Of a DNA stretch of 64,000 nucleotides, positions 19,211-44,357 are shown one piece after another (position 1 is the stretch's first letter; each line of letters begins with the position of its first letter). Location of the stretch: contig JAKAHC010000006.1 of the NCBI GenBank assembly GCA_021815305.1, positions 62,001 to 126,000 on the forward strand, read 5' to 3'. The DNA is from Deltaproteobacteria bacterium (GTDB taxonomy: Bacteria; Desulfobacterota; Deferrimicrobia; Deferrimicrobiales; Deferrimicrobiaceae). Below the pieces are notes generated by a model, which was given only the letters and a program-made list of their open reading frames with translations, did no database searches and had not been told where the DNA came from. The translations under genes and the position numbers were made by a program.

Positions 19211-21889
19211 CTACGACCTGCCCGCGTCGAGGATCTCCCGCACCTTCCGGAGCAGGTCGTTCGGAAGGAACGGCTTCTGGAGGAAGCGGAAACCCGGCCG
19301 GCCGCCGCCGCTTTCGATGCCGTTTCCCTCCGTGTAGCCGGACATGAAAAGCACGTTCATGCCGGGTCTTTCGTCCTGCAAGCGGATCGCCAGCTCGCGG
19401 CCGCCCATCACGGGCATGACCAGGTCCGTGATGAGCAGATCGACAGGCTCCCTGCGCTCCTCGAAAAGGCGCAACCCCTCCCTCCCCTCGTCGGCGGAGA
19501 GCACCCGGTACCCCTTCCCGGAGAGGACGTCCACGACAAGGTCCCGTACCGCCTTCTCGTCCTCCACCACGAGGATGGTCTCCCTGCCGCCCAAGGAATC
19601 ACGGGATGCCTCCGTTTCCCCGGCCTTCGCGGTTTCCTCGGCGGTCCGCGGGAAATACACCCGGAACGTCGTGCCCGCTCCGACCACGCTCTCCACGTCG
19701 ATGTACCCGTTGCTCTGCTTGACGATCCCGTAGACGGTGGCCAGGCCCAGTCCCGTTCCCTTTCCGACCTCCTTGGTCGTGAAGAAAGGCTCGAAGATGC
19801 GGGAGATCGTCTGGCTGTCCATCCCGCATCCCGTGTCACGGACCGTGAGCGCCACGTATTGCCCTGCGTTCACCCCCTCGTGGCTCCGCACGAAAGACTC
19901 GTTCAGCGTCACGTTGGCGAGGGACAGGGAAAGCGACCCCACGCCCGGCATCGCGTCCCGGGCGTTCACCGCGAGGTTCATGACCACCTGCTCGACTTGC
20001 GACGGATCGGCATGCACCTTCCAGAGGCCGGGCCCGGCGGTCGTGACCAGAACGATGTCCTCTCCGATCAGGCGCTGAAGCATCTTCTCGATTCCGGAGA
20101 CGACTTCGCCCAGGTCGATCACCTTCGGATGAAGCACCTGCTTCCTGCTGAACGCGAGGAGCTGGCTGGTGAGCAAGGTGGCCCGGTTTCCCGCCTTGCC
20201 GATCTCCTCGAGGGCCCGCCGCTCCGGATCGGCGGGGGAGTGCTGGGCAAGCAGGAGCTCGCTGTACCCCGTGACCACCGTCATCAGGTTGTTGAAGTCG
20301 TGGGCGATCCCCCCCGCGAGCCTGCCGACCGCCTCCATTTTCTGCGACTGGCGCAGTTGGTCCTTCAGGCTCCTGTGTTCGGTGATGTCCTTGTTCAGAC
20401 CGATCATGCGCGTCACGCGGCCGTCCGCATCCCGGAGCACGATCGCGTGGGATTCCATGTACCTCACCTTGCCGTCCGGCTGAACGATGCGGAACTCCAC
20501 TTCGTGTTCCTTCTCTCCCCGGAGGGCCGATTGGAGGTCCGCCATGAAGACGGAGCGGTCTCCGGGGTGCAGCCGTTCTCCCCACGCTTCCAGGCCGGCC
20601 GGAAACGCGTCCTCCGGTATGCCGTACTGCTCGAACATCCTGCCGTCCCAGAGCAGCCTGTCGGACCGCACGTCCCATTCCCAAATGCCCCAGTGCCCGG
20701 CGTTCGCGGCAAGCTGAAGCCGACGTGTGGTGTCCCGGAGGGCCTCCTCCGTGCGCTTGAGCTCCGTGATATCGTGCGCCACTCCGCGGACCACGGGCTC
20801 CGGCACTCCCACCGTGCGCAACGTGTTGTTGTATTCCCAGATGCGTTTCTCTCCCTTGCGGGTCTGGACGAGCAGCATGCCGTGCGACTCGCCGCACTCC
20901 CGGATCTTTTCCAGGTACGCCTCGAATTCCCCGCGCACTTCCGGCGCCAGGATGTCGGCCAGATTCATCCGCAGGAGTTCCTCCGGGGCGTAGCCGAGGA
21001 TGTTCGCCGCCGAGGGGTTCGCGGAGAGGATCTTCCCCGACAGGTCGTGCGTGCAGATGAGGGCTTTCCCGTGGTCCACGAGGTCCCGATACCGGTCCTC
21101 GCTCTCCCGCAGCTTCCGCTCGGCCCGTTCGCGGCCGTCGAGATGTTTTCGCACTTTCGACCCGCCGTAGCCGATCCCCGCGAGACCGAAGAGCCACAAG
21201 CCGGCATGCAGGAAGATCCCCGTTCTTATCCCCCCCCGCTTTCTGGCGCGGATCGGCGCAAGCGGCACCATGACGCTGATCCCGCCGTGGAGGTCGCCCA
21301 CCTTGTATCCCTGTTTCGCGTGGCATTTGAGGCAATCCTTCTCCGTGAGGAACGGCCGCATCATGCGCAAGAAGGCCTCGCCCTTGATCGTTTCGACCGA
21401 GCTGACCTCGCGTTCTCCCCGGTGCAGGGACCGGAGAGCCCCGGATTCCCAGGAGTCGGGAAGATTTCGGGGGCGGATCGCCCGCAAGCCCGTGATGTGC
21501 CCCCGGAACCCGTACTGGTCTCGTCTTTCCTCCTCCACCTGGCGCGTCATGTAGGCATGGTCCAGCAGCGTGAGGAGGCGGCCCGAAGGGGTCCGGACAT
21601 CGCGTTCCGGGATGTCCGACAGGTACGGATTCGGCAGGGTGTTCTTCGTCACGGGGGCGTAGACGCCCCCGTTCTGGACAGACCACCGGCGGTATGCGAG
21701 GTCCTTGTTGAACGTGACCCGGGCTTCCGATTTCGCCTGTTCCACAACGAACTTCCGACTCGCCCTGATGCTCATGTACAGGGAAAACAAGACGATTGCC
21801 GTCCAGAGGGCCATCAGGGCCAGGACGAAAGGCATGACGCGGAGGCGGGGGGGCTGGATGCCCGAAAAGGATCCATGGGGTTGGGACAT
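19211..21889 (-). CDS. hybrid sensor histidine kinase with periplasmic DUF3365-like CxxCH domain
   Basis: A protein of 892 residues. A membrane helix at about 18-40 leads to a periplasmic domain (about 41-210) resembling DUF3365/Tll0287. That domain carries C186-L-K-C189-H190, a heme c attachment motif. A second helix follows at about 222-245. Two PAS domains (about 265-375 and 390-505) precede the HisKA dimerisation helix with the phospho-accepting His in 'GGIAHDFNNL', then a HATPase_c domain ('DTGCGMD', 'GTGLGLATV') and a C-terminal receiver ('VVEDEK', phosphate-accepting Asp in 'ITDLVMPVMGG'). It probably senses redox state or a heme ligand. No separate response regulator is adjacent. The Tn7-like end begins about 140 bases upstream of its start. 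Confidence 0.92.
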   Translation of the reverse strand: MSQPHGSFSGIQPPRLRVMPFVLALMALWTAIVLFSLYMSIRASRKFVVEQAKSEARVTFNKDLAYRRWSVQNGGVYAPVTKNTLPNPYLSDIPERDVRTPSGRLLTLLDHAYMTRQVEEERRDQYGFRGHITGLRAIRPRNLPDSWESGALRSLHRGEREVSSVETIKGEAFLRMMRPFLTEKDCLKCHAKQGYKVGDLHGGISVMVPLAPIRARKRGGIRTGIFLHAGLWLFGLAGIGYGGSKVRKHLDGRERAERKLRESEDRYRDLVDHGKALICTHDLSGKILSANPSAANILGYAPEELLRMNLADILAPEVRGEFEAYLEKIRECGESHGMLLVQTRKGEKRIWEYNNTLRTVGVPEPVVRGVAHDITELKRTEEALRDTTRRLQLAANAGHWGIWEWDVRSDRLLWDGRMFEQYGIPEDAFPAGLEAWGERLHPGDRSVFMADLQSALRGEKEHEVEFRIVQPDGKVRYMESHAIVLRDADGRVTRMIGLNKDITEHRSLKDQLRQSQKMEAVGRLAGGIAHDFNNLMTVVTGYSELLLAQHSPADPERRALEEIGKAGNRATLLTSQLLAFSRKQVLHPKVIDLGEVVSGIEKMLQRLIGEDIVLVTTAGPGLWKVHADPSQVEQVVMNLAVNARDAMPGVGSLSLSLANVTLNESFVRSHEGVNAGQYVALTVRDTGCGMDSQTISRIFEPFFTTKEVGKGTGLGLATVYGIVKQSNGYIDVESVVGAGTTFRVYFPRTAEETAKAGETEASRDSLGGRETILVVEDEKAVRDLVVDVLSGKGYRVLSADEGREGLRLFEERREPVDLLITDLVMPVMGGRELAIRLQDERPGMNVLFMSGYTEGNGIESGGGRPGFRFLQKPFLPNDLLRKVREILDAGRS

Positions 21890-22029
21890 CCGGAGAACTC
21901 CCTTCCCTGCGAAAGGCCACCGTGCGAAACCGTAACAGTCGGTACTATCGGCGATTCAGGAGGGAATCTTCAAGGATGATTCACTTGGAAATCCCCGGGG
22001 ATGGACGACCGACTAAGGTATCGGATGCC

Positions 22030-22165
22030 AATAAAGTTGTTACCGCAAGGTCGGGCAACTGATTGATTTTCCGTTGCGCCCGCTGGGGCCTATTCCCGTA
22101 TAGTTTTTACATTTCCCGCAAAGTCCATCAAAGTTCTTACATTCCGTGACAATAAAGTTCTTACA
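22030..22165 (+). repeat. array of four TnsB-type binding repeats; one end of the Tn7-like element
   Basis: Four 15-bp direct repeats read AATAAAGTTGTTACC (22030-22044), CGTATAGTTTTTACA (22097-22111), ATCAAAGTTCTTACA (22127-22141) and AATAAAGTTCTTACA (22151-22165). The last is preceded by GAC, giving GACAATAAAG, which is also the core of TnsB-binding sites in canonical Tn7 ends. In Tn7 such sites read from the terminus inward, so the terminus should lie just left of 22030 with the element extending rightwards. No clean 5'-TGT terminus is seen; the bases 18 before the first AAAG core read TATCGG. Confidence 0.72.
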
Positions 22166-22246: not shown

Positions 22247-22377
22247 ATATTGACGAAAAGTGCCGACATATTTCCAAGAAGCAATTTATCATACATATAA
22301 ACCTATTGGTCTGAGTGCTGGGTCGTACCTTGGTTGGGAATGGCCTAAGGGACCGGGCATCTGTCGAGGAACTGTGG

Positions 22378-23178
22378 ATGACCACCATTCTTGGGATCGA
22401 CGCCGCGTGGACAGCAACCGAGCCCAGCGGCGTCGCGCTTGTCACGTCGGACCGCCACGGTTGGCGATGCATCGCTATCGCACCAAGTTACGACGAATTC
22501 TATTCACTCTCTCGCGGGCGTCCGGTCACGTGGATAGATGGGACATCGAACGGCAGCCCCCCAAACGTCCCACATCTCCTCAGGGCAGCACAAAGACTTT
22601 CGAGATCGGAAATTGACCTCATTGCCGTTGATATGCCCGTCGCGACCGTACCGATTGTTGGCCGACGCGTAGCTGATAGAGCCATCTCGACTGCTTTCGG
22701 CAGGCGTGGCTGCTCCACACACTCCCCAAACCTATCCCGGCCTGGAGCACTCGGCGCACGGCTGATGCGGGATCTTGCGTCTGCAGGTTACTCGCTCGCC
22801 ACTAGCACAACAAAAACTGGCACCGTACCAATAACCATCGAGGTGTACCCACACCCTGCGCTTCTTGCACTGCTGGGGCGGAGTTATCGCATTCCCTACA
22901 AGGTCGGAAACTCCACCCGATATTGGCCTAAAGTTTCGATAGCTCAGCGCAAGCAAAACCTCCTGGCCGAGTTCCAAGCAATCTACTCGGTGCTTGCGCA
23001 CAGTCTCGGTGCCACGGGAGTACCACTTGCGCTTGCATCATCTGTGACGGCACTATCTCATCTGAAACGGTTTGAAGATGCCCTTGATGCGTTAATTTGC
23101 GCTTGGGTTGGTACACGTTACATCGCCGGTGCGGCGGTGCCCTACGGAGATGGAACGTCTGCGATTTGGGTTCCCTAG
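22378..23178 (+). CDS. DUF429 domain protein (cargo)
   Basis: A protein of 266 residues resembling DUF429: 'ILGIDAAWT' at the start, an RNase H-like strand with an acidic residue, then 'DLIAVDMPVA' and a late 'FEDALDALICAWVG' with acidic residues that could complete a metal site. The reaction is unknown. The start at 22378 follows GAGGAACTGTGG; the longer frame from 22315 has no matching residues. It sits just inside the Tn7-like end, on the opposite strand to the tns operon, where passenger genes are common. Confidence 0.72.
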   Translation: MTTILGIDAAWTATEPSGVALVTSDRHGWRCIAIAPSYDEFYSLSRGRPVTWIDGTSNGSPPNVPHLLRAAQRLSRSEIDLIAVDMPVATVPIVGRRVADRAISTAFGRRGCSTHSPNLSRPGALGARLMRDLASAGYSLATSTTKTGTVPITIEVYPHPALLALLGRSYRIPYKVGNSTRYWPKVSIAQRKQNLLAEFQAIYSVLAHSLGATGVPLALASSVTALSHLKRFEDALDALICAWVGTRYIAGAAVPYGDGTSAIWVP

Positions 23179-24013: not shown

Positions 24014-25834
24014 CTACGATACGAGTTCTTCCACCAATTTCGCCAACGGGGGTGTGAGATTCTTTTCCCTCAAGCCCGTAAGTTTTAACAGGGCCCAAGA
24101 CTTCAGCGGCAGACCTCTCTCAGGTGCAATGACGGCGGCCCGCCTGAGACGTCTTGCCCGGAAGTCCTCGACAGACTCCTCTAACTCGCGCAGTGCAGCG
24201 GCGCACATTGGCAACCATTCCTTTTTTTTCCATGTGAGTCGGCTGAGTTTTGCATGTTTGATGATCCCCTCACGCGATGCTCGTTTGAGTGGGACGCTTT
24301 CACGGAGTTCTTTCGCGGCGGATCTTAGACTCTCGACTAGGCTCCGGTCTCTGGCCTCCCAATCTATACGGGACCGATTGCACGTCGCGCGGACGAACCG
24401 TCGAGACTCAGAAAATAGCCATTCCGAATCGTGTCGGCGAAGTCGATCGTAGAGTTTTGAATTAAGCGTTCGTGCCTTATCCCGGCTCCTGCCGGGCACT
24501 TGTTCCAGTAATGCATGCCATTCTTTACGCCAACCGAGAATTATCTCCTGGTCCACGTCGTTTCTACCTCTCTTGGTTCTCCCTTCTAAAAAATTATCGA
24601 TGGTTCCTTGAGATACACCCAACGCCTGGGATGCCGCACGCTTGGAAAGTCCAGATTCAATCAGATCCTTTGCTTTCTTCGCCCAGGTGGGACCGTAAAG
24701 CACCATCTTGTCGATGACAGGGGATTCTCCATTTATCGTTCTGAACGAAAAACGAAATCCGCAAGGACAACAAGCAGACGCGACGGGCCTCCCATCGCAA
24801 TCAGGTCTCACCCATATGGAGCGGATGGACTTTTCAGTGTCTTGATCACAATACGGATTCGGGCACTTCCATGGCGCATGGCCGAATGGATGGGAAAGCT
24901 TGCCATTCGCCGGCGTCTCTTCGAAAAACACTTGGAGGAGCGCGTGTTGAACGGGATGATGGTTTCTAGTGCGTGTCCGGAAGGTTTCTCTTAGCCAATT
25001 GGTGTCCACCCCCAGATAGACGTCGCATTCGATCGCGTTGAGAAATTCACGTCCGAAGAAGTCGACAAATGATTGTTCAAGTTTCCCCTGGTTAAGGATT
25101 TTGCAGTATGCGTGAAAACGTTCTCCTCTAAAACCAACATTCATTGCAGCCTCTCGGTACTGGCTTTTCCTGTCGTCGCAACTCCACCGGTTCTCCTTTC
25201 TTAGAAGGAAGTCCTCGCATCTTCGGGCAATCTTCCAGGCGTTGATCAAAAATCCATTCGACAACTCTAGCCGCGAACCATCCGGGTTATGCGTGGCTTC
25301 TGTCGCGTCGATGAAATCCCACAAACCAATCGGTCGATACGGAACGGCACTATTAGCCAGCATGCGCTTGTGATCTATACATACAAGAACCCCGGGTAGC
25401 TGGTGGGTTCGACGCCAATAGGTTTCACTCCATAGTTCGAAATCTTGCGAGACGCACTCTGGGCAATACCGTAGGAATTGGGGAATCCGAACACGGCTAC
25501 GGTTGATTCCCAGCCTCGAATGCAACCCCATCCCGCTGTCGGATACGAGTGCTTCCAGCGCTCTTGTCTTCACCGTTTCATTCGCAAAATACGTGTAATA
25601 AGGAAACAACGTATACCTCTCTGCGATTTCCTCCGCGGTCAATCCCCATAACGCCGCCGCATTCTCGGCAAAGTAGCCGAGTGAGGAGGGCAAGTCGACT
25701 TGAGCCCTGGAACCGCGTCTTCCAAATAGTTCTTCGACGCCAGCGCCCCTTGCCCCTCCGATGTGCGCGAAGTATCGCGCTATGATGCTGTAAAACAGTT
25801 CGTCCGGGTATGGCTTCGGCAGATAGCTCAGCAT
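24014..25834 (-). CDS. tnsD: TniQ/TnsD-family target-selection protein
   Basis: A protein of 606 residues. The N-terminal TniQ domain opens 'YLPKPYPDELFYSIIARYFAH', with residues 'GRRG' soon after. A zinc knuckle follows: 'YCPECVSQDF' then 'HQLPGVLVCIDH'. A second zinc-ribbon segment is 'WKCPNPYCDQD' with 'ACCPCGFRF'. An HTH-like segment 'SKRAASQALGVSQGTIDNFL' lies near residue 395. The size and two zinc modules are closer to TnsD than to short TniQ. TnsD proteins bind a fixed attachment site and recruit TnsC. It overlaps tnsC by seven bases and is last in the operon. The target site is not evident. Confidence 0.85.
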   Translation of the reverse strand: MLSYLPKPYPDELFYSIIARYFAHIGGARGAGVEELFGRRGSRAQVDLPSSLGYFAENAAALWGLTAEEIAERYTLFPYYTYFANETVKTRALEALVSDSGMGLHSRLGINRSRVRIPQFLRYCPECVSQDFELWSETYWRRTHQLPGVLVCIDHKRMLANSAVPYRPIGLWDFIDATEATHNPDGSRLELSNGFLINAWKIARRCEDFLLRKENRWSCDDRKSQYREAAMNVGFRGERFHAYCKILNQGKLEQSFVDFFGREFLNAIECDVYLGVDTNWLRETFRTRTRNHHPVQHALLQVFFEETPANGKLSHPFGHAPWKCPNPYCDQDTEKSIRSIWVRPDCDGRPVASACCPCGFRFSFRTINGESPVIDKMVLYGPTWAKKAKDLIESGLSKRAASQALGVSQGTIDNFLEGRTKRGRNDVDQEIILGWRKEWHALLEQVPGRSRDKARTLNSKLYDRLRRHDSEWLFSESRRFVRATCNRSRIDWEARDRSLVESLRSAAKELRESVPLKRASREGIIKHAKLSRLTWKKKEWLPMCAAALRELEESVEDFRARRLRRAAVIAPERGLPLKSWALLKLTGLREKNLTPPLAKLVEELVS

Positions 25835-27462
25835 GCGGCGGCTCCTCCACCAACACCGGCAATGATGCCGGCCTGGCGAAGCGCATCATGGCCGTTGCCG
25901 TTCTTTCCGTTTCCGTCCACGACCGCCTTCAAACGATTCGCAAGCGGCGGGACGGTCGCCTTGTCGGTTTTGGCGCCCCCGTTTCCACTTTTCGTCTTCG
26001 CGGTGGCCGCCCCGGCGACACCGGCCGATCGCAGTATGAAGCCAACGGCTTCGAGGCAAGTCTTCAGACCCTGTCGTTCGAAGGCGTCGTCCACCAGTTT
26101 CTTGGCCGCGCTTTCCTCCGTGCCCAAGTCGACGAGCGCCGATACCGCTCTCGTCTTTTCCGCTATGGCTTGCGTCTGCGATTCGGCCTTCGCCGCCTGA
26201 AGCAGGGCGAGTTGGGCATCCCTATCGACATCCTGACCCAGAGACTTCAGGCCGTTCGTAAGCAGGTCCTCGTATTTACTGATCTTTTTCTCGTCCTTGG
26301 AGCGGAGGGCGTCAAGCATGGGCGCAAGCAACCGGAACTTCTGCTTCGCCACCTTGCGGAGAAGCTCATCCGTGAGGGTTTCGGTCCCGGTACGGATAGC
26401 CTCGATCTGCGAAAGTTGGAACAGCCTCACCACCAGGGCGGTGACGCCCTGGGTTTCGTCGTAGAGAACGCTTTTCAGGACGGGGGAGAGTTCGACCGGC
26501 TTTTTCGTCCACTGATACTCCCACATACCCTCGACGAAGTGCTCCCACTCCTTCCCTTCACCGAAGGCATCCCAGATCGCGCCCCCCATGTCGCTGACGC
26601 GCCGCGCTTCGCGGAAGACCCCGTTCAATAGGGCAAGCCCCCGCGGCGTTCCGATCGTGACGTACGGGATCTTGACTTCGTTCGATAGCGTGACGAAAAA
26701 ATTGAGCATCTTCTCCTGGCCGACGCCGCTGGCAAGTAGCAGATTCTGGACTTCGTCCATAACGAGGAGACCGAGATGATGTGTAACGGCGACGCGGGCC
26801 ACATGTCCGATGAGTTCGTCGACGGTTTTAGCGCCCTTGAACGCCTGGCGCCATTTCGAGCCGAGAAGCTCGTCCACCTTGTCGAGGATCGCCAGTAGGA
26901 ATTGCTTGAGGCTTCCGTCCAAGGGACAGTCGATCTTGAGCCAGCAGATCTGGAAGAACCCGTGCTCCTTGTGGTACAGCACCTGCGGGGAAAAGGCGAG
27001 CGCCCGTTCGATTGCAGTGGATTTCCCGACTCCCGATACACCGAACAACGCAATGCTCGGGGCGGTGGAACGCCTGGTTGGCGAGATCGTAAGAATTTCA
27101 CCGCCCATGGCACGACGGTAGTACTCCTTCATCTTCTTGCTGTGTCCGGGATCCAGCGGGTTGCGGGAGGTGTATCCTGCCCGAATGAGAAGGCCGATCT
27201 GTTCGACGAGCCCGAAATGTTTAGGCAGGGGTTCGACGTACTCGTCGAGCCGTAAAACACATTGCATCCGGGTTTCCTTGGGTAGTTGGCGTTCCCCGGC
27301 GCTAATATGCGGATAACGTCCAAACGCCTTCATCACGTCCTTGGCCGCGCGGAACGGCGGCAGCGCCTCGATAAGCGGGTTGCCCGCATGCTCCGGCAGA
27401 TCGGCCGGTCGGTAGATCGCCTCCGGCCAGTTGATTGTCTCAACCACGGGCTTCGTGCTCAT
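25828..27462 (-). CDS. tnsC: TnsC-type AAA+ ATPase regulator of transposition
   Basis: A protein of 544 residues. Walker A is 'FGVSGVGKSTAIE' and Walker B 'LLVMDEVQNLL', followed by sensor-type 'YVTIGTPRG'. The N-terminal segment ('HFGLVEQIGLLIRAGYTSRNP') and long lysine- and alanine-rich C-terminal tail resemble Tn7 TnsC, which links the target protein to the TnsAB transposase. The ATG at 27462 follows GCAGGAGGAACCG. It overlaps tnsB by 23 bases and tniQ by seven, as expected for one coupled operon. Confidence 0.9.
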   Translation of the reverse strand: MSTKPVVETINWPEAIYRPADLPEHAGNPLIEALPPFRAAKDVMKAFGRYPHISAGERQLPKETRMQCVLRLDEYVEPLPKHFGLVEQIGLLIRAGYTSRNPLDPGHSKKMKEYYRRAMGGEILTISPTRRSTAPSIALFGVSGVGKSTAIERALAFSPQVLYHKEHGFFQICWLKIDCPLDGSLKQFLLAILDKVDELLGSKWRQAFKGAKTVDELIGHVARVAVTHHLGLLVMDEVQNLLLASGVGQEKMLNFFVTLSNEVKIPYVTIGTPRGLALLNGVFREARRVSDMGGAIWDAFGEGKEWEHFVEGMWEYQWTKKPVELSPVLKSVLYDETQGVTALVVRLFQLSQIEAIRTGTETLTDELLRKVAKQKFRLLAPMLDALRSKDEKKISKYEDLLTNGLKSLGQDVDRDAQLALLQAAKAESQTQAIAEKTRAVSALVDLGTEESAAKKLVDDAFERQGLKTCLEAVGFILRSAGVAGAATAKTKSGNGGAKTDKATVPPLANRLKAVVDGNGKNGNGHDALRQAGIIAGVGGGAAAC

Positions 27463-29644
27463 CGGTTCCTCCTGCGCGTTCGGCGCGGTTCGTTTTGAGG
27501 ATCTCCAGAGAGTCTGACTCCTCCTGGTCCTCGGGCAGCTCGTAGGGAGCGGTTGCTGGGTCGTTCGCCGGCGGACGTTTAGACTGTGTCTCGTCCATAA
27601 CGAATTTCTCGCTCTCCCGTTGTGCGACCTTCTCATCCGTACGGCTTTCGCGGATGCCCGAGGTTCGCTCGGCTTTGCTCCGGGTATCGGCGCCCAGGGC
27701 CTTCAGCTCTTTCTCAGCCTTCTGCTTGATATCCGCCATCTCGTGGTTACGCCCGATCCGCTTAGCCCGGCGACCGTCCGCTCCCGCGCCGATATTGACC
27801 TTGTTCTGTTCTCCAAGCTCTTCGACCTCGAAGATCGACTTGCCCTGGAATTCGACGCTCTGCTTAAGCAGGGTGCATTCTTCGTAACCCTTTAGGCATT
27901 CCTTGCTGTGCACGTCGCGCAGGTAGACCGTCCCCATATCGCGCGGGTCGAAGGATACATCCACCTTCCATTCCTTTCGGCGCGCCATGGCGAACCAGTC
28001 TTCACGCAACGCCGTCGGGGACGAGTAGTATCCTCCCTTGAAGAAAATTCCGTGGGATGTGATCTTGGCCTTCTCCATCGGCATTACGTTGAGCATCATT
28101 TCCTCGACGCTGATACGTTTGAGCGCTCCGCTGAGATGTCTGATCCCCCAGTTCCACAATTCGACCGGCGTCGGCTCCAAGCCCTCCACGATCATCCTGG
28201 CGGGCGGAACATATTTTTTTATCGGTTCGTTGTTGTGCTCGATCACGGCATGGACGACGAGCTGAGTGAACTCCGCGAGGTTCAGGGTCGCGTTGAGGCG
28301 GTAATCCGGCGCGCCGCGCTCCCCGGAATCGGCCTCCACGTAGCCCGGCGTGAACTGTTTGAATATGGCCGGAACGATCCCGAACCGGCGCTCCACGAGT
28401 GCCTTGAGGTCCGGCCGCCCGGGGCTTGCGTTCTCGATGTCGATCCTCAGTTTGTCGACTATGTTCTTCCCCAGCTCCACGCTTGCGAGCTCGCCTCTAT
28501 CGGCGAGTATCCGTTTCGGTGCTTCGTAAGACGGCCACTCCTCCTCGTCGATGTCCAGCCCGATCCGGCGGCAGAAATCGGCTTTCGACGTCACCATATT
28601 GACCAAGACCATCATGGCTCCGACCCAGGACGGTCCCTCGAATCCGACATAGACGCCGGTGATGAGGCGGCTGAAGACGTCGATCGCGAAGTAGATGACA
28701 GGCCGGCCGACGATGCGTCGACGGTCGAACTGGGAGACGAGGTAAACATCGGCCACGGTCGCGTCGACCTGGAATCGGTCGCCGGGTCCCTGGACGTCGC
28801 CGGTGTTCGTGCCGAGCAAGCTCCTTTCGTTTAGGTCCCAGTTTTTCTGGCCACCGCGACGGATTCTGCGACTCTGATACGATTCGTCGTTTTCCAGGAA
28901 ATGGCGGAACTGGCGTAGGGTGGGCCGCTCATTCTCCGGCACCTGGACGACAAATTTCTTGCCGTTGTCGTCGACAAGGCGGTGCGAGTAGTAGAGGTCG
29001 ATGATCTTGTCGTACGCCTTCTCCATAGAAACGTCCTTCCGGCGCAGATAAAAGTCCACCCCGGATTTCAGCTTCTTACGGACATCGTCGTTCACGCCCA
29101 TACCGGTTCCGGGGGTGATCCGGCGCTTACGTCCGGCCTTCGCCAGTCCCTCGAAATTACGCTCTTTCCCACGATGGCCGCACTTGTGGTAATCCGTCCC
29201 GAGCGCGGTGTAGGTCATCCCCCGCTTCCAGAACACCTTCAGGAGGGCGGAAAGCGTCTGGCGCGTCGTCTGGCAGTCCCCAAGCCGCTTCCTGATGAGC
29301 TGCGCCCGCACACGAGGGATGAATACCGCAGCCTCGTTCTCGCCCCGTACCAGAGGCTCGATAAGCCGGTACCGCTTCTCATGCCGCTTCGCGGCTTCCG
29401 TATCGGTCTCATGCATGCCTATGCGATTCGCCGCCCACTTGTCGTCGAGCTCGACGGCCAACTCTCCCCTCTCAAACCGTTCCTCCAGTACGGCGGTAGG
29501 GATCGGATATGGCCAGGAGTCGTCGCTGGTGTTGATGAGCCAGCAACGACCGCCGGACCTGTCGACGTGAAGCAGCCTGTCGATGGCGCCGTTCGCCGTG
29601 TCCCGGAGCAGCATCCTTTCCGCAAGCACTAGCTGGCTACGCAC
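27440..29644 (-). CDS. tnsB: TnsB-type DDE transposase (intact catalytic triad)
   Basis: A protein of 734 residues. The RNase H-like core has 'FQVDATVADVYLVS' (first D), 'RILADRGEL' (second D) and 'DLKALVERRFG' (E) with 35 residues between the last two, the classical DD(35)E. A Mu-type C-terminal beta domain follows, then a charged tail that in Tn7 contacts TnsC. TnsB binds the end repeats and joins 3' ends to target DNA. GC content matches its operon neighbours. It overlaps tnsA by eight bases. Confidence 0.93.
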   Translation of the reverse strand: MRSQLVLAERMLLRDTANGAIDRLLHVDRSGGRCWLINTSDDSWPYPIPTAVLEERFERGELAVELDDKWAANRIGMHETDTEAAKRHEKRYRLIEPLVRGENEAAVFIPRVRAQLIRKRLGDCQTTRQTLSALLKVFWKRGMTYTALGTDYHKCGHRGKERNFEGLAKAGRKRRITPGTGMGVNDDVRKKLKSGVDFYLRRKDVSMEKAYDKIIDLYYSHRLVDDNGKKFVVQVPENERPTLRQFRHFLENDESYQSRRIRRGGQKNWDLNERSLLGTNTGDVQGPGDRFQVDATVADVYLVSQFDRRRIVGRPVIYFAIDVFSRLITGVYVGFEGPSWVGAMMVLVNMVTSKADFCRRIGLDIDEEEWPSYEAPKRILADRGELASVELGKNIVDKLRIDIENASPGRPDLKALVERRFGIVPAIFKQFTPGYVEADSGERGAPDYRLNATLNLAEFTQLVVHAVIEHNNEPIKKYVPPARMIVEGLEPTPVELWNWGIRHLSGALKRISVEEMMLNVMPMEKAKITSHGIFFKGGYYSSPTALREDWFAMARRKEWKVDVSFDPRDMGTVYLRDVHSKECLKGYEECTLLKQSVEFQGKSIFEVEELGEQNKVNIGAGADGRRAKRIGRNHEMADIKQKAEKELKALGADTRSKAERTSGIRESRTDEKVAQRESEKFVMDETQSKRPPANDPATAPYELPEDQEESDSLEILKTNRAERAGGTDEHEARG

Positions 29645-30470
29645 GGGCGTTCCTCCCGAACATCGGATTCACGGCGAAGGATGAGGCCGGACGATCCTGG
29701 AGCTTGCCGGCCGAGAGATCTGCCGTCAGCACCTTCCGCGCTAACAGGTGGCGAAGGAACGTGAGACCGGTTCCGGGCGTGAGCCCTAATGCGGAATCGA
29801 ATTCTTGGCAGATGCACCACATCGGCGCGTTGGGCGCCCCAAGAATCGAGTCCACGAAGCGCGATGAGAGAGCGGCGGTATGAACCGGATCTCCCAGGCA
29901 ACTTTCGTCGAAGCACGGGAAGATCCATTCGAGGTTCCGACCGACGGGAGTTTTGACCTCTTTTTCCGTGACGAGCCTCCACTCGACGCCGCGCTCTTCC
30001 AGATAGATGCGCTCGATCTCCAGCTTTTCGAGGACACGGCCGTTGTCGAGTTCGGATGCCTGCTTGACGGCGCTGGCCTTCAGCGTCTGTAGACTTCCTG
30101 TATATAAGGTAAGCAGGAAGTCCGTGGTCATGACGATGGGTACCCGGGAATGCGGGTCCACCGGGTGCTTGACGCCGAGAGAATCCGCGATCCGGCCGGT
30201 GCCCTCGCGATCGAGGAGGGGGAATTGCTCGCGGATGTCGACCACGGTGTCGTCCCACCAGAAGTGCAGGAAAGCGAAATACTCGGTGTCCGACAGGAAG
30301 TGGTGCACACGCGTGGTCTTCGGGCAATAAACCCTGTGCACCCGGCCGAGTGACGGCACGTCGTTCGTGCGCAGCCACGGCTTGTACCCTGCCCCTTGCC
30401 CCTGGCCGCGCCCTTCCTTGAGGTACGTCCGGATACGGGCCTCCGTTATGCCGTATTTTTTCCGTGCCAT
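29637..30470 (-). CDS. tnsA: TnsA endonuclease
   Basis: A protein of 277 residues with the TnsA N-terminal restriction-endonuclease-like fold: 'HHFLSDTEYFAFL' (E), 'VVDIREQFPLLD', 'PIVMTTDFLLT' (D) and 'ASAVKQASEL' (the Q/K region). The C-terminal winged-helix-like part follows. TnsA cuts the 5' ends so that the element leaves its donor completely; its presence predicts cut-and-paste rather than replicative movement. The gene starts four bases after the TniB-like gene. Confidence 0.88.
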   Translation of the reverse strand: MARKKYGITEARIRTYLKEGRGQGQGAGYKPWLRTNDVPSLGRVHRVYCPKTTRVHHFLSDTEYFAFLHFWWDDTVVDIREQFPLLDREGTGRIADSLGVKHPVDPHSRVPIVMTTDFLLTLYTGSLQTLKASAVKQASELDNGRVLEKLEIERIYLEERGVEWRLVTEKEVKTPVGRNLEWIFPCFDESCLGDPVHTAALSSRFVDSILGAPNAPMWCICQEFDSALGLTPGTGLTFLRHLLARKVLTADLSAGKLQDRPASSFAVNPMFGRNARA

Positions 30471-30474: not shown

Positions 30475-31527
30475 CTACTCGGCGGTCCGAACCACGTCGA
30501 TGAATTCGACGCCCAAGTTACTGTATCTGTCTCTTTTCGGACGAATGCGGACGCCCGCAGCAGTTGTCATCTTAAAGATCGGCTGCATTGTACGCAGACC
30601 TTCGGCCAGCTCTTGCACATCGGTCCGGAATGAATGCTGGCGCCCGCTTCCCATTCGCGCTTTCTCCGCCACCCCCCAGCGTTCTTCGTACACATTGGTC
30701 AGATGGTCCAGGGTGATTTTTTCCGCACCTTCCTGGAGGGCGAGAATCGCCGCCTTTCGGACAAGTACCATCACGTCTCCGACAACACCTTTTGTGGCGT
30801 GGTGGATCCGTAGCGCCGTCCCCCGGGAAGATAAGCCTGAGCGGGAATCGAGGGGCAGCATTTCGTCCAGAAAACCCAGGAACGTCCGGAACTCGTTTTC
30901 CTGCTCCTCCGGTCCCCAGCCGAACGGCTCCAAGATCATCCGCGAGAATCGCCTCGCGAACTGGTCGTTTGCATGGAGGATGTCGTCGGACTCTGGTGTC
31001 CCCATGGCGACCATGGGTACGCCTGTGTGAACCACGAGGCTTTTCAGCCAGTCGACGGCAATCTGGGCCTGGCGCCGGTCTATGCGGTAAACGTGTTGGA
31101 TCTCGTCCAAGATGATCATCTCGACGCCACGGTCCGCAAGCGACTCAAAAAGCCTGTACGTCTGGTTGTCGATGGACCCTTGGGAGGGATTCGGTACGCC
31201 GAGGTCGTAAAGGAGGCGTGTGGCGATGCTCTTCACGCCCGGGATAGCCGGGACGACCGAGGTAAGGACGCGGATCACGGTCCCTCGTTCTGTCACCCGC
31301 CTCGGGAATTTCGCCACATAAGAAGTGGCAACGGTCGTTTTCCCCGCCCCGGTCGGCGCTGTCAGGAACAGGCACTGGGGTTCCACAGAGCGTCGGAACG
31401 ATTTGTGACACTCGGAGAACCTCGTCAAGATTTTTTTTAGCTGAGGATGGAGTATGAATATCTTCTCGGCCACCTTGATCCGTTCATCGATAGACATCTT
31501 TGAGAAGCGGTTTCCGTTCGCGCTCAT
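30475..31527 (-). CDS. tniB: TniB-like AAA+ ATPase (second transposition ATPase)
   Basis: A protein of 350 residues. Walker A 'LTAPTGAGKTTVA', Walker B 'MIILDEIQHVYRIDR' and sensor 1 'VPMVAMGTPES' are intact. The architecture matches TniB of Tn5053/Tn402-type elements rather than TnsC, being shorter with no long tail. Its ATG overlaps the stop of the TniA-like gene by one base (TAATG). Having a second regulator ATPase in the same operon as tnsC is unusual; it probably partners the TniA-like protein upstream. Confidence 0.87.
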   Translation of the reverse strand: MSANGNRFSKMSIDERIKVAEKIFILHPQLKKILTRFSECHKSFRRSVEPQCLFLTAPTGAGKTTVATSYVAKFPRRVTERGTVIRVLTSVVPAIPGVKSIATRLLYDLGVPNPSQGSIDNQTYRLFESLADRGVEMIILDEIQHVYRIDRRQAQIAVDWLKSLVVHTGVPMVAMGTPESDDILHANDQFARRFSRMILEPFGWGPEEQENEFRTFLGFLDEMLPLDSRSGLSSRGTALRIHHATKGVVGDVMVLVRKAAILALQEGAEKITLDHLTNVYEERWGVAEKARMGSGRQHSFRTDVQELAEGLRTMQPIFKMTTAAGVRIRPKRDRYSNLGVEFIDVVRTAE

Positions 31528-33398
31528 TATTTCCCCTCCTTTCGGGATAAGCAGTTGTTGGTTTCCAATGCGCTCGACTTTAGAACGTCTTCGTCTTTCA
31601 ACTCAGTTCTCGTGTGGCTGCGCGTACCTGCGGTAACGGAGCTTGAGACAACACGCTTTGGTACCCTACGGCGCTTCTCCAACATCGCGCCTTGACCAAC
31701 CTCCGCATGGTTCAGGTATCGGACCAGCACCTGCCTGTACGCATTCCTTTTCGCCTGTGCCTGCCCGCGCGTGACGATCTCCACGATTCTTCGCTTAGCC
31801 CGGACCAGGTGCACAGCGCTGGCCTTTTCAAAGGCCTGACGCCGGGCAGATTCCATGACGACCCTGTGCTGCGATAGCGTTAGTCCCCGCGTGTACGCCC
31901 GGTTGACCGCTGGGACCGTGATGACAGTGCCTTTCGCCGCGTCGAAGACATGAATAAGCGACAAGTCAGTTGGGTCGAATTTGACCCTGACCCTCTCGCC
32001 CTTTCTCATTCCGCGCCAAAGGGGCGCAAGCCCCCCACTGTTGTAAAAAAGTCCGTGGAGTTTGATGCCCGAGCGGGAGATGACGCGCTCCTCTGTCACT
32101 TGAAGGAGGATTTCAAGTTCCTCAGGTCTCGGCGGCAGGGCAGGTGGGTGTGCTTCGATGCCCCGCTTCCAGACAATTGCGGGGATCTGCTTCGTCTCCG
32201 GATGCAGCCGCTGGTTGTAGTGGTCGACGATGTAGATGTGCAGGAGTTCGTCGATAGTGCGCATGTCGATGACGGTGCGCTTTTCCGCATGGTCGTCAGC
32301 GTTCTCGGGATGGTCGGAGAACGTCGTCCCCAACTGCAGGTGGGGTAACAACTCGTTGAAATTACGGAACTGCCGCTCGACAGCGCCCTTCCAGTAAACC
32401 CGCCGGACGGGAGCATACTCGATGAGGATGCCCAACCGGTTACAAGCATCTTCGAAATGCTTGCTGTGGAACTCCCTCCCGTTTGCAACAACGACCGCTT
32501 CCGGAAGACCATGGGCGTCCCAACTACGCACAACGCTCAGGTATCGGACTTTTACGCCCGACTTGGGCGCGATAGCGTGGAAGAGGCATCGCATTACGGC
32601 GAGATAACTGGGCGGTTCCAAGCTCAGGTAGATCCCCAAGCAGCACCCGGAGTAGAGATCGATGGCGATGGAGAGCCATGGCCGCCCGAGCGGCATCCCC
32701 ATCTTTGAGTCAACTACCAATACGTCGAGCTGGGTGTGGCCGATCTCCACACGCTCCAGAGGTCGCGTAGGGGTCAGCCTCAGCTTGGCGACCTTCGCCC
32801 GCGGGACCGCGGTCCCTTTTCGGTTGCGGGCCGCCAGCCATTTGCGTTTGTTAAGCCTACGTACTTCACGGCGGACGCTGTAATAACTTGGAGGTATCAA
32901 CTCGTCGTCGGGGGACCTGAACCTATTTGCCTCGTGAATCCTTAATATAATGGATATCCACGCGGTCCTTATACTTGTCCTCCGGGGAGACAGGTACTGC
33001 TCTACAACGATGTCCCCGATGATTTTGAGGACTTCGGGATGGATTCGCCGGTGCCAGTTCCCCCTGTTGCGAACGAGAGGAATTAAGCTTCGTATATTTC
33101 CACCAGATGCCACGAACCTCCGGTACCAGCGACAGAGGGTCTTTCGGGAAGGCGGGTTGACGTCGCCTATGGCTAGCGCGACTTCCTTTGTTAACCGCCG
33201 AAGCCCTTTGAACTTTCTTCCGGAGTCGATCCGCTGTCGAATCGCATCTATGTACTTGTATCGACGCTGAACCTCCGGTCGACATTCCTCCGGTACCTCC
33301 GTGAATTCTGAAGGAAGGCGCTTGTCCCCTTGATGGGATGGTTCCTCCAAGTTGGTTTCGGGAAATGCGAGCGACAGTTGTTGGTCGGCTCTTGTCAT
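31527..33398 (-). CDS. tniA: TniA/Mu-type transposase with substituted catalytic aspartates
   Basis: A protein of 623 residues from the ATG at 33398, chosen for AAGGAGGAAAGGAAG; an ATG at 33512 is an alternative, with AGGAGG 14 bases away. An N-terminal HTH region, an rve-type core, and a Mu C-terminal domain ('SRSGIKLHGLFYNSGGLAPL', 'VRVKFDPTDLSLIHVFD') are all present. Where relatives have 'EIDHT' this has 'VEIGHTQLD' (Gly220, GGC at 32739-32741). Where they have 'DNGKEF' this has 'VVANGREF' (Ala305, GCA at 32484-32486). Glu341 ('KGAVERQF') is kept, 35 residues after Ala305. The frame is intact yet the enzyme should not cut or join DNA. It leads the tniB-tnsABC-tniQ operon. Confidence 0.85.
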   Translation of the reverse strand: MTRADQQLSLAFPETNLEEPSHQGDKRLPSEFTEVPEECRPEVQRRYKYIDAIRQRIDSGRKFKGLRRLTKEVALAIGDVNPPSRKTLCRWYRRFVASGGNIRSLIPLVRNRGNWHRRIHPEVLKIIGDIVVEQYLSPRRTSIRTAWISIILRIHEANRFRSPDDELIPPSYYSVRREVRRLNKRKWLAARNRKGTAVPRAKVAKLRLTPTRPLERVEIGHTQLDVLVVDSKMGMPLGRPWLSIAIDLYSGCCLGIYLSLEPPSYLAVMRCLFHAIAPKSGVKVRYLSVVRSWDAHGLPEAVVVANGREFHSKHFEDACNRLGILIEYAPVRRVYWKGAVERQFRNFNELLPHLQLGTTFSDHPENADDHAEKRTVIDMRTIDELLHIYIVDHYNQRLHPETKQIPAIVWKRGIEAHPPALPPRPEELEILLQVTEERVISRSGIKLHGLFYNSGGLAPLWRGMRKGERVRVKFDPTDLSLIHVFDAAKGTVITVPAVNRAYTRGLTLSQHRVVMESARRQAFEKASAVHLVRAKRRIVEIVTRGQAQAKRNAYRQVLVRYLNHAEVGQGAMLEKRRRVPKRVVSSSVTAGTRSHTRTELKDEDVLKSSALETNNCLSRKEGK

Positions 33399-33530
33399 CT
33401 TCCTTTCCTCCTTGTCCCGTCCGTGTCTACCAGAGATCTCACTCACCGGTCGGGTCGCTGTGGTTTTTTCCAGAAAGCGTCGCGCCATTTCGTTTCTTGT
33501 TGTCGTCTGCATTTCGCTTCCGTCATCCTC

Positions 33531-33601
33531 CTTATTCGGGCCATGCCCGATGATGGAGTCAGTGTAGTGTATGACTATATCTAAAGTCAAGCAAATAATA
33601 G
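33531..33601 (-). promoter_or_regulatory. promoter P1 of the transposition operon with repressor box (repeat copy 1)
   Basis: A ~70-bp block almost repeated at 33724-33792. On the minus strand it contains the box CTATTATTTGCTTGACTTTA (33582-33601), which includes a -35 TTGACT, then an 18-base spacer and TACACT as -10. A TCGGGC/GCCCGA hairpin-like dyad follows. It points into the tniA operon. The sequence upstream of the -35 is conserved in three places near the repressor gene, as expected for an operator. Confidence 0.65.
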
Positions 33602-33723
33602 CGGTACGATAAACTATTTTGCAAGGTATTAAGTAGGAATAATCCGCAGTAAGGGTATTGCCTAATATACTGGGCAAATCCGTTTAGTTCGCTCAGCTCA
33701 CCTGCATTCACTTTCCTCACCCC

Positions 33724-33792
33724 CCTTTCGGGCCATGCCCGATGACGGAGTCAGTATAGGTTATAACGCATCTTAGGTCAAGTCAATAATAG
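33724..33792 (-). promoter_or_regulatory. promoter P2 with repressor box (repeat copy 2)
   Basis: Second copy of the block. The box CTATTATTGACTTGACCTAA (33773-33792, minus strand) contains TTGACC, a 17-base spacer and TATACT, a near-consensus sigma-70 promoter. The TCGGGC dyad and a following AATGCAG are also duplicated, so the leader and the first codons of an upstream start were probably copied in tandem. It also reads toward the transposition operon. Confidence 0.65.
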
Positions 33793-33879: not shown

Positions 33880-34626
33880 CTAAAGACCTCTAAACACCCA
33901 AACGACTCGACCGATGACCGACGAGGGGTGGGCTCGCAGGTCGACGAAAATTGGATCCTCCCCCCCATGTTTAAGGTCGTGGAGGGCGATCATGCTTTCA
34001 TTTACCTCCAGACGGCATAGGCGCACCGCGTCCTCAAGCCGGACCGCATAGACGCTTTCCGCAATCACCGGCATTTGGGGTTGTGGCCGGTCGCTCCGGT
34101 CGATGCATATGGTATCCCCGATGTAAAAATGCGGTTTCATCGAATCATCTTCGATAAGGACACATATGGTATCGTTATCCTCCTTCTCGGTAGATGCTTT
34201 CGGGAGGAAGAGCTTCATCGCCCACGCCTGGGATTCCGTTATGAGCCCGGAGAGAAGGGTAGTCTCCCTGCGTGCAAGATCGAAGTCGTTTGAGTTCTGT
34301 GACCGCAATGATGGATGATCGTCCTCTTTTCTCCTGAGGTCCCTCAGAAAGACTCTTTTCAACACAACGCTTTCCGTTACAGGGCCATCCTGAGCGGGGA
34401 TCGTCCGGTAAAATTCGCCTGGTTCCACTCCAAGAGCAGTGGAGAGTTTTCGTAGCGTCTGAGGCCCCACGCCGGTCCTGCCACATTCGATCTGGCTCAC
34501 CATTGCTTGGTACCGCCACCCCACCTCCTCCTTCAACTTTTTCTGGGACCACCCTTTCGCCTTTCGGAGGCGTTGAATGTTCCAAGCAACAGTTCTCATC
34601 ATTTCGGGATCCCGATTTTTCCCCAT
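33880..34626 (-). CDS. XRE-family repressor with S24/LexA-type C-terminal domain
   Basis: A protein of 248 residues. The N-terminal Cro/CI HTH is 'IQRLRKAKGWSQKKLKEEVG' followed by 'YQAMVSQIECGRTGVGPQTL'. The C-terminal peptidase S24-like domain has 'IEDDSMKPHFYIGDTI' with the usual Ser. At the place where LexA-type proteins have the catalytic Lys (V-K-R-L) it reads 'RLCRL', so self-cleavage may be lost. It should repress the transposition operon and itself: three matching boxes overlap promoters at 33582, 33773 and 34708. Confidence 0.85.
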   Translation of the reverse strand: MGKNRDPEMMRTVAWNIQRLRKAKGWSQKKLKEEVGWRYQAMVSQIECGRTGVGPQTLRKLSTALGVEPGEFYRTIPAQDGPVTESVVLKRVFLRDLRRKEDDHPSLRSQNSNDFDLARRETTLLSGLITESQAWAMKLFLPKASTEKEDNDTICVLIEDDSMKPHFYIGDTICIDRSDRPQPQMPVIAESVYAVRLEDAVRLCRLEVNESMIALHDLKHGGEDPIFVDLRAHPSSVIGRVVWVFRGL

Positions 34627-36101: not shown

Positions 36102-37163
36102 TTACAACAGCGCGTTGAACAGGTACCCCACGATCAGGATCCCCAAGCCCACGATCCCCGCGAACGTGGCGATCAGCCGGACCTTGAGCACCTTTCGCAG
36201 GATGATCATCTCGGGCAGGGATAACCCGATGACGGCCATCATGAAGGCCAGCACGGTCCCGAGCGCCGCCCCTTTGCCGAGCAGCGCCTGGACGATGGGG
36301 ATGATCCCGGCCGCGTTCGAATACATCGGGATACCGATCAGGACCGCCAGGGGAACGGACCACCAGGCGCCCGCGCCCATGATCCCGGCCATGAAATTCT
36401 CCGGGACATACCCGTGGATGCCGGCACCGACGGCGATCCCGACCAGGACGTAGGGCCATACCTTGCCTACGATGTCCCGAACGGCTTCGAGCCCGTATCG
36501 GACCCGGTCCCGCCAGGTGAGGCGCTGGTCGTCCCCGACGCTGTCCGCACCCCCAATCGCCTCATAGACCCACCCTTCCACGTACCGCTCCATCCCGAGA
36601 CGCCCGATCACCCAGCCGGATACCATCGCGATCACGAGCCCCGTCACGAGGTAGATCGCGGCGATCTTCCACCCGAACAGGCCGTACAGGAGCACAAGCG
36701 CGACCTCGTTGACCATCGGAGCCGAGACGAGGAAGGAGAACGTCACGCCGAGAGGAACGCCGGAGGTGACGAATCCGATGAAGAGAGGCACTGCGGAGCA
36801 GGAGCAGAAAGGCGTCACGATGCCGAGCAACGCGGCGAGCACGTTCCCCGCCGACTCCCGGTTACCGGCGAGGATTCGGCGAGCCCGCTCCGCCGTGAAG
36901 AACGAGCGGAGGACCCCGACGCCGAAGACCACGAGGGTCAGCAGGAGAATGACCTTCGGACCGTCATAGATGAAGAACTCGACGGCCGCCCCGACCCTCG
37001 AAACGGGGTCCAATGAAAGGACGGAATATGTGACCCACTTCGCGAACGGCAGCAGGTTGCGGTAGAGCAGCCACCAGAACAGAAGGAGAAGCCCGCCGGG
37101 CAGCAGGTATCCAAGCGCGAACGAACGATCATTCGGCGAGGAAATGTCGCGGGAAGTCGTCAC
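36102..37163 (-). CDS. UPF0718/DUF318 permease (ArsP-like, copy 2)
   Basis: A protein of 353 residues and a close paralogue of 17185-18318. The cores 'GIVTPFCSCSAVPLFIGF', 'SAPMVNEVALVLLYGLFG' and the final ~110 residues are almost the same, but the N-terminus differs and lacks the Cys/Gly-rich leader. About eight membrane helices. It is the last gene of the ars operon, ten bases after the universal-stress gene, which supports a role in metal(loid) export. Confidence 0.85.
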   Translation of the reverse strand: MTTSRDISSPNDRSFALGYLLPGGLLLLFWWLLYRNLLPFAKWVTYSVLSLDPVSRVGAAVEFFIYDGPKVILLLTLVVFGVGVLRSFFTAERARRILAGNRESAGNVLAALLGIVTPFCSCSAVPLFIGFVTSGVPLGVTFSFLVSAPMVNEVALVLLYGLFGWKIAAIYLVTGLVIAMVSGWVIGRLGMERYVEGWVYEAIGGADSVGDDQRLTWRDRVRYGLEAVRDIVGKVWPYVLVGIAVGAGIHGYVPENFMAGIMGAGAWWSVPLAVLIGIPMYSNAAGIIPIVQALLGKGAALGTVLAFMMAVIGLSLPEMIILRKVLKVRLIATFAGIVGLGILIVGYLFNALL

Positions 37164-37173
37164 GATGTCCTCC

Positions 37174-38052
37174 TTAAGGATGCCCCGGCACTACGAGTAC
37201 AGGGACCGTGGACCGATGGACCACGTGGTTCGCCACCCGCCCGAGGAACGCCTCTGCCATATACCCCCGCCCCTGGCTGCCGATGACGACCATGCTGTGC
37301 CCACCCTTTCGGATCTTCTCCACGATCAGTGGGCCTGGCCGGCCGAACTCCACCTCCTTGCGCACAATGCTTCTCCCCCACTCCACGAGCCGCTTTTCGA
37401 GTCCATCCAACCTCTCCATGTCGATCCGGTTGAATTCATCCAGACGATGGACGAGATGAGGGTGGATTCGTGCCTGGTCCTGCACGTGGAAAAGGGTCAC
37501 CTCCTGCGGGCGGGCGTGCGCCACGATGTGCTCCAGGTAATGGAAGGCCCGCTCGGCGGATCCGGAAAAATCGGTGGCGAACAGGGGGTGGCGGAAGAAG
37601 TCGCCGGAGAGCACGTCGCACTTCTTCTCCCCGCCCTCTTCTTCGAGGATGGTGATCGGGAGAAGCAGGACCGGCTTCTCCGCCAGTTGCAGCAGGCGAT
37701 GGACCACACTCCCCAGGAGAATGTCCTTCACGAGAGATTCTCCGTGCGTTCCGGTCACGATCAGGGAAATGTCCGCCTTCTTGGCGAACTGGTTAATTTC
37801 GTACGCGGGATCCCCCATGGGGATTTCCAGGCGCGTCCGGAACCCCATCTCCATGAGTCGTTTTTCTTTATCCTTGAGGAGCGGTTCGATGAAGCTTTTC
37901 ATCGAGAGGTACAGTCCCCCCACATCCCGGATGTTCATCACGTGAATGAGGGTTACGCTTTCCGCCCCCGCCCCCCGAAGAGGACCCATGCAGCGCAGGA
38001 GTGCAATCGATGCTGGGGACAGGTCCATGGCGATCAACAGGTTCTTGAACAT
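37174..38052 (-). CDS. universal stress protein (tandem UspA domains)
   Basis: A protein of 292 residues with two UspA domains. The first ('LLIAMDLSPASIALL', then 'IVTGTHGES..DILLGSVVHRLL') and the second ('PLFATDFSGSAERAF', 'VVIGSQGRGYMAEAFLGRVA', quoted in parts) each end in an ATP-binding-type G-rich loop. The ATG at 38052 follows GGGAGGCTGAG. Usp proteins are often co-transcribed with ACR3 in arsenic operons and may help cope with the stress. Confidence 0.88.
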   Translation of the reverse strand: MFKNLLIAMDLSPASIALLRCMGPLRGAGAESVTLIHVMNIRDVGGLYLSMKSFIEPLLKDKEKRLMEMGFRTRLEIPMGDPAYEINQFAKKADISLIVTGTHGESLVKDILLGSVVHRLLQLAEKPVLLLPITILEEEGGEKKCDVLSGDFFRHPLFATDFSGSAERAFHYLEHIVAHARPQEVTLFHVQDQARIHPHLVHRLDEFNRIDMERLDGLEKRLVEWGRSIVRKEVEFGRPGPLIVEKIRKGGHSMVVIGSQGRGYMAEAFLGRVANHVVHRSTVPVLVVPGHP

Positions 38053-38077
38053 CTCAGCCTCCCTTTCCGGAGCGGGA

Positions 38078-39168
<1,091 letters not shown>

Positions 39169-39172
<4 letters not shown>

Positions 39173-39396
39173 CCGCAGCAGCCCCCGCCCTTGCGCCCCA
39201 TCATCATCCCCATCACGGAGATCATGTTCGCCATCGGCTCGCCGCAATCCTCCGTCATCAGGGAAAACATCTCCCGGATCCGCTTCGGGTCGCCCATCAT
39301 GCCCTCGCAGAACTCCGGCATGATCTGCCGAAGCACGGCCATCTGGTCTTCCTTCGAAAGCGCCTTGAACTGCGTCGTGAACTCCTTCGCCTTCAT
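39169..39396 (-). CDS. small Met/Cys-rich protein in the ars operon
   Basis: A 75-residue protein I do not recognise by function. It is helical, with a methionine-rich tract 'MISVMGMMMGRKGGGCCG' that ends in a vicinal Cys pair. Both ends overlap neighbours by four bases (ArsA stop, ACR3 start), so expression is coupled. The terminal CC could bind As(III) or Cu(I) and pass it to the pump; this is inference. Confidence 0.75.
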
Positions 39397-41273: not shown

Positions 41274-41335
41274 CGATTGGCGTTATTCCTCCACCTGACT
41301 TCTCACCCGCAGCGACCGCCGCGGCCAGGGGGGCA

Positions 41336-41521
41336 TCACCCACCCGGGGCGGGCGCTCCACCTCCACCCCCGCCCCCGACGGAGAAGCCGAACAGTTGTT
41401 GCTCCACCTTCGCGCTTCCACAAACCGGACAGCGGGGCTTCCACGTGTCTTTCTCCCGGATGGACATCCGGATCTCGAACGGACGGCCGCAGGCGCGGCA
41501 CAGGTACGCATAGGTCGGCAT
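41336..41521 (-). CDS. FmdB-family zinc-ribbon protein
   Basis: A 61-residue protein: 'MPTYAYLCRACGRPFEI' and 'RCPVCGSAKVEQQLFGFS' are the two CxxC knuckles of the FmdB/CxxC_CXXC_SSSS family. A Gly/Pro-rich tail follows. The family is thought to be regulatory or to bind metal, with no proven reaction. It is placed directly against arsD (one base apart) in the arsenic operon, which is a frequent arrangement. Confidence 0.82.
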   Translation of the reverse strand: MPTYAYLCRACGRPFEIRMSIREKDTWKPRCPVCGSAKVEQQLFGFSVGGGGGGGAPAPGG

Positions 41522-41821: not shown

Positions 41822-41893
41822 TTCGTTCCTCCTTGTTCCCGAATCCCACAAACGGGTAGGATGGTGACCATGGATATTATTTGCCCGAAGCGG

Positions 41894-41920
41894 TATAATG
41901 TCAATTCGTTAGTTGTCGAA
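41894..41920 (+). promoter_or_regulatory. arsR promoter -10 and candidate ArsR dyad in the divergent ars intergenic region
   Basis: TATAAT at 41894-41899 is a perfect -10 for the plus-strand arsR. It is followed at once by TGTCAATTCGTTAGTTGTCG, a region with TGTCaA/TTgtCG half-sites. The spot lies between divergent arsD (41821) and arsR (41935), where one ArsR dimer could control both directions. No good -35 was identified. Confidence 0.5.
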
Positions 41921-41934
41921 ATGGAGGAAGTCAC

Positions 41935-42366: not shown

Positions 42367-42392
42367 GGACCTGATCGGGAAAGGATCTCGGG

Positions 42393-43109: not shown

Positions 43110-43116
43110 TCTCTCC

Positions 43117-44330: not shown

Positions 44331-44357
44331 CGCTATTCTCCCGATGACTCGACCGGT

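Follow-up and report, generated by a model that had tools for sequence, protein, structure and literature searches.

The window analysed is a stretch of 64,000 nt on contig C13 (positions 62001-126000), part of a draft genome of 2.77 Mb (features in Table 1). Four direct copies of an 18 nt repeat lie 137 bp upstream of the start of a kinase ORF. Its core 10-mer, GACAATAAAG, occurs 28 times in the window when up to two mismatches are allowed, against 26.4 occurrences expected, and is by itself no proof of anything; the full 18-mer is significant. A weight matrix was made from the four copies alone and scanned across 81 kb of the contig. Its eight best matches (scores 24.5-29.3) were these four copies and four inverted copies at contig positions 130247-130349, the next best scoring 14.5. 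When 20 Markov sequences of equal length were scanned, their top scores had a mean of 13.8 and a maximum of 20.4.

The window ends at C13:126000, so this second array falls 4.4 kb past it on the same contig. Its sites start at C13:130247, 130292, 130312 and 130332 (spacing 45/20/20), and the outer 20 bp, TATCGGATGCCAATAAAGTT, are identical and inverted at both ends of the element. The edges lie at window position 22019, a few bases before the first repeat, and at C13:130356, giving a length of 46,338 bp. Two features that mark Tn7-like elements, inverted TnsB-site arrays at both ends and a 5 bp target duplication on either side (TAAGG), are present. An earlier note on this DNA, made from the window alone, had read the repeats as a Tn7-style end of an element to their right, possibly exceeding 42 kb, and had proposed extending the contig to find inverted copies; the matrix and the inverted partner array back this reading, both edges have been located, and the metal and DISARM blocks, which it took for cargo, lie inside them.

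Table 1. Features of the window, with positions counted from its first nucleotide.
Feature	Position	Strand	Remarks
Kinase ORF	19211-21889	-	
Target duplication TAAGG, left copy	22014-22018	.	right copy at C13:130357-130361, outside the window
Left terminal inverted repeat	22019-22038	+	element edge at 22019
Left-end array, four TnsB-type sites	22026-22164	+	22026-22043, 22093-22110, 22123-22140, 22147-22164; spacing 67/30/24
DUF429 protein, candidate defence gene (PDC-S44)	22315-23178	+	
TnsD, predicted target selector	24014-25834	-	TniQ and TnsD domains
TnsC, AAA+ ATPase	25828-27636	-	domain; 50% identical to G063 TnsC
TnsB transposase	27440-29644	-	D-D-E retained; best match among solved structures is E. 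coli Tn7 TnsB
TnsA endonuclease	29637-30470	-	domain
TniB*, short ATPase of TnsC type, paired with TnsB*	30475-31527	-	
TnsB*, second TnsB homologue without both catalytic Asp	31527-33512	-	G, A, Glu kept; likely start ATG at 33512, though the open frame extends to 33677
Duplicated promoter-like segment with palindrome	33535-33792	-	copies 33535-33601 and 33727-33792; palindromes at 33536 and 33728
HTH and S24-peptidase repressor-like protein	33880-34626	-	upstream of the tns operon
Metal cargo	36105-49585	.	ArsP, Usp, SBF transporter, ArsA, ArsR, LMW phosphatase/ArsC-like, thioredoxins, DsbD-like, TauE, CRP-like, MerT-HMA, MerR
TIR protein	49979-50974	-	ThsB model match
Dsr1	52344-56080	-	two overlapping frames
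DISARM drmMII, drmB, drmA	56279-63486	-	
DISARM drmE	63416-64000	-	truncated at the window end, extending to C13:128043 beyond it

The right edge lies 25 nt from the stop codon of glmS (C13:130382-132211), a gene recognised from its complete translation and from relatives with 72-88% identity. In an E. coli chromosome that carries Tn7 the gap is 25 nt as well (NZ_CP033762, glmS ending at 2975 and Tn7 starting at 3001), and 33 of 39 nt at the 3' end of glmS agree with E. coli. Insertion about 25 nt past the stop codon in one fixed orientation, the mark of the glmS group, is thus seen here, with orientation judged from the site spacing only. Since the gap is that of Tn7, the element is classed in the Tn7 family, as a new member that occupies the canonical attTn7. 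It had been suggested that the target was one upstream of the kinase, not familiar as a TnsD target, but the position of the opposite end beside glmS rules out a new kinase-associated target. The kinase is just the far-side neighbour, and would have lain downstream of glmS before insertion.

Empty sites were surveyed in 24 genomes of the family, of which 21 gave a glmS match (22 loci in total). None of the other glmS loci in these genomes has this kinase adjacent, only weak domain matches of 22-34% being present in three loci. None of the 24 offered an uninterrupted locus in which glmS adjoins the kinase, so the empty site is reconstructed from the duplication. The earlier note had named the same repeats upstream of this kinase in genomes lacking tns genes as evidence against its reading, and none were seen in the family survey, although one genome (G099) carries a solo right end at glmS and no TnsB was found in it. 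In two genomes (G306, locus L033, and G179, locus L038), different repeats, AATAAAGT..GACACC, stand just after glmS and are perhaps the ends of another Tn7-like element; they gave no match to the matrix of the 46,338 bp element.

The tns operon runs toward the left end in the order TnsB*, TniB*, TnsA, TnsB, TnsC and TnsD. The set expected of a Tn7-like element, a TnsB with D-D-E, TnsC and a TniQ/TnsD protein, is present inside the boundaries, together with TnsA. The best match of TnsB is the structure of Tn7 TnsB (7pik, E=1e-103), with which it also groups in the tree (E. coli Tn7 TnsB, support 100/100). The claim that the repeats go with a very different TnsB was therefore overstated, as the site-matched TnsB is this one and the divergent homologue is TnsB* of the same operon. 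No TnsE was detected among the element proteins scanned with Pfam, a set without the small ORFs, and Pfam scans of the element proteins gave no cas genes. In the promoter-like segment ahead of TnsB*, the two copies are 88% and 83% alike in two blocks and each holds the palindrome TCGGGCCATGCCCGA, the upstream copy leading into a frame of four codons. The arrangement suggests that tns may be regulated by the S24-type repressor, the promoter-like sites and the repeated palindrome.

The cargo comprises a block of metal genes, with an SBF transporter that we take to be ACR3-like, and a block of defence genes. Models for Dsr1 cover 1-453 and about 480-1273 of the two frames, which may reflect a frameshift in this copy, a genuinely split gene or an error in the sequence. 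Among the scanned proteins, neither drmC nor ThsA was identified. Two AT-rich genes without a clear match to a Pfam or PADLOC family separate the TIR gene from Dsr1 (minus strand, 50971-52337; 217 and 238 aa, G+C 0.41-0.44). The G+C fraction is 0.644 and 0.666 in the flanks, 0.575 in tns, 0.618 in the metal block and 0.529 in the defence block. Defence cargo on Tn7-like elements is well described (PMC8649781).

A sibling element of about 20.3 kb is present in genome G063 (C11, about 233.55-253.88 kb; L074/L075). It shares the site motif, a closely similar spacing (67/31/24 and 44/20/20 versus 67/30/24 and 45/20/20 here) and the order and position of tnsABCD (TnsA 47%, TnsB 48%, TnsC 50%, TnsD 31%), but lies 11 nt past the stop codon of a response-regulator gene, not at glmS, is flanked by a GAGGG duplication, and is without TnsB*-TniB*. 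In G099, which belongs to another genus of the same family, the solo right end has the same terminus and is separated from the preceding glmS by 26 nt; no left end was found in that genome. This family of elements has thus probably visited glmS here more than once. The E. coli Tn7 (L073) likewise occupies attTn7 with its tightly spaced end beside glmS, has TnsB sites with a CAATAAAGT core 10 nt from the edge, and encodes homologues of TnsA and TnsB (tnsC is cut in L073 and tnsD is not in the comparison). In contrast to Tn7, the tns genes here are at the end far from glmS with tnsD outermost, the scanned proteins include no TnsE, there is an extra TnsB*-TniB* pair, and the cargo is another. The termini also differ (TATCGG here, TGTGGG in Tn7). 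Tn7-like termini typically begin with TGT, which we treat as typical and not as defining; both ends of the present element read TATC, as does that in G099, and the sibling in G063 reads TGTC.

Judged from sequence, the repeats almost certainly form the left end of a transposon of the Tn7 family, complete and 46,338 bp long, inserted at the glmS attTn7. Against this stand the TATC termini and the failure to find an uninterrupted relative in the family survey. The confidence covers the transposon and its target and does not extend to the role of TnsB*-TniB*. By analogy with Tn7, TnsD would bind the conserved 3' end of glmS and TnsC would bridge, site-bound TnsB would cut and join the 3' ends and TnsA would cut the 5' ends, and the element would enter attTn7 as a simple insertion with its tightly spaced end toward glmS. 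It is unlikely that the island once moved in this manner and is now immobile: all four core genes have open frames, TnsB keeps its D-D-E, and the edges and duplication are exact, even if the element comes from a draft genome, its relative in G099 is reduced to a solo right end, and left-end sites 2 and 3 score lower (24.5 and 25.0) than sites 1 and 4 (28.5 and 28.5), the equivalent second site of the sibling being weaker still (12.3). That the repeats belong to the host, as regulatory or extragenic ones with a chance likeness to Tn7 sites, is a reading that the chance-level frequency of the 10-mer core would allow, but it is extremely improbable in view of the inverted partner array, the terminal repeat, the 5 bp duplication, the attTn7 geometry and the same array in the sibling.

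A Tn7 relative inserted at glmS with cargo is ordinary; only the extra TnsB*-TniB* pair, which leads the tns operon ahead of tnsA, departs from the textbook, and it is because of this pair alone that the element is regarded as a variant. TnsB* matches solved TnsBs over about 500 residues (PseTnsAB, 30jv, E=3.6e-71; Tn6677 TnsB, 9y7b, E=5.7e-57), and its AlphaFold model is poor (mean pLDDT 39.9). Its catalytic positions are occupied by Gly313, Ala398 and the retained Glu434 (numbering of the 716 aa frame), G-A-E where an active TnsB has D-D-E, and TnsB* should not be capable of catalysis by the D-D-E mechanism. The triad is D-D-E in 30 of the 31 other aligned rows and N-D-E in the remaining, degenerate one (L023), so a loss like that of TnsB* is not seen among the aligned relatives. 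In the tree, TnsB* stands beside TnsBs of cyanobacterial plasmids (98/93), far from the element's own TnsB. Among the matches listed, the nearest to TnsB* (38-42%) and TniB* (38-40%) belong to plasmid elements of Allocoleopsis and Nostoc with the order tnsA-tnsB-tniB-tniQ, which keep D-D-E, tnsA and tniQ, whereas here a G-A-E protein and its partner precede the tnsABCD of another element. By eye, the C-terminus of a Calothrix TnsB homologue (L014, 9743-12250) resembles a TniQ-type zinc region and may mark a TnsB-TniQ fusion. Another relative, 34% identical to TnsB* and with D-D-E (L059, G557 C22), has a match that crosses one TGA near its end.

Orthologues of TnsB* were sought in two overlapping draws from the phylum (297 and 395 genomes), in the classes of G063 (277 genomes), of G223 (12) and of the present genome (26), among 72,556 plasmid records (best 40 of 4,886 matches), and in a scan of genome contigs with a single query sequence that reaches close relatives only (9 loci). 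No second TnsB*-TniB* was found in the phylum, class, plasmid or contig searches, identity being at most 42% among the matches listed; absence from the contig scan is weak evidence because of its one query and narrow reach. Two scans of viral contigs gave no relatives of TnsB*. Relatives of the canonical TnsB (E<=1e-60) occur in 16 other genomes, four of which also have a match in the TnsB* search: in G223 this is the canonical TnsB itself, in G063 one match is at the canonical TnsB and one on another contig, in G547 it is on another contig, and in G419 it is megabases away from the canonical gene. Searches of open-licence papers, among them PMC10293859, PMC11406308 and PMC8649781, brought up no TnsB described as catalytically dead, and none at the head of a tnsABCD operon.

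The favoured reading, to which we give about an even chance, makes the pair a passenger without function: a piece of a different Tn7-like element would have been captured upstream of tnsA and have lost its catalytic residues since nothing required them. Consistent with this are the failure to find a second example, the absence from TnsB* of the C-terminal DLSGWDVSIGLP tail that its two nearest relatives of full length, those of Allocoleopsis and Nostoc N6, have in common, and the lack of cyanobacterial-type binding sites in the window (0 matches versus 0.98 expected). The pair also has no TnsA of its own before it, while in Allocoleopsis, Nostoc N6, Calothrix, Aeromonas, Pseudomonas, Acinetobacter and Niallia the TnsB homologue directly follows a TnsA or endonuclease gene (six annotated plasmid relatives with such a named gene, plus Niallia). 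Less easily reconciled with a passenger are the two intact frames and their tight junctions: TnsB* and TniB* overlap, and with a gap of 4 bp between TniB* and tnsA, expression of tnsABCD probably relies on promoters ahead of TnsB*. At 11 columns invariant in 25 relatives (a count that omits six rows, namely four of the Tn7 clade, one fragment and one degenerate), TnsB* differs at exactly two, both of them the catalytic Asp. In a closer set of eight it deviates in 9 of 52 columns, where relatives with D-D-E deviate in 0-12, and so does not appear generally decayed; TniB* retains 9 of 10 invariant columns, among them the Lys and Asp-Glu of the ATPase.

We regard as rather doubtful a further possibility, a working accessory module in which TnsB* would have lost catalysis and kept its fold and DNA binding, have its own ATPase and be co-expressed with tnsABCD, acting as an extra target selector (for example, toward rival Tn7-like ends) or as a block against rivals. 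If TnsB* is active at all, our best guess is that it binds DNA as the partner of TniB* and in this way influences target choice or keeps out a related rival element. Such a module, if true, would parallel TnsF, described in PMC10293859 as a catalytically dead recombinase co-opted as a target selector in Tn6022.

The analysis fixes at base resolution the boundaries of a 46 kb mobile island for defence and metal resistance. The canonical attTn7 is in use in this host lineage, where one relative keeps a trace of the same element, and TnsB* offers a concrete candidate, open to testing, for a new route by which dead enzymes may be recruited to Tn7-like elements.
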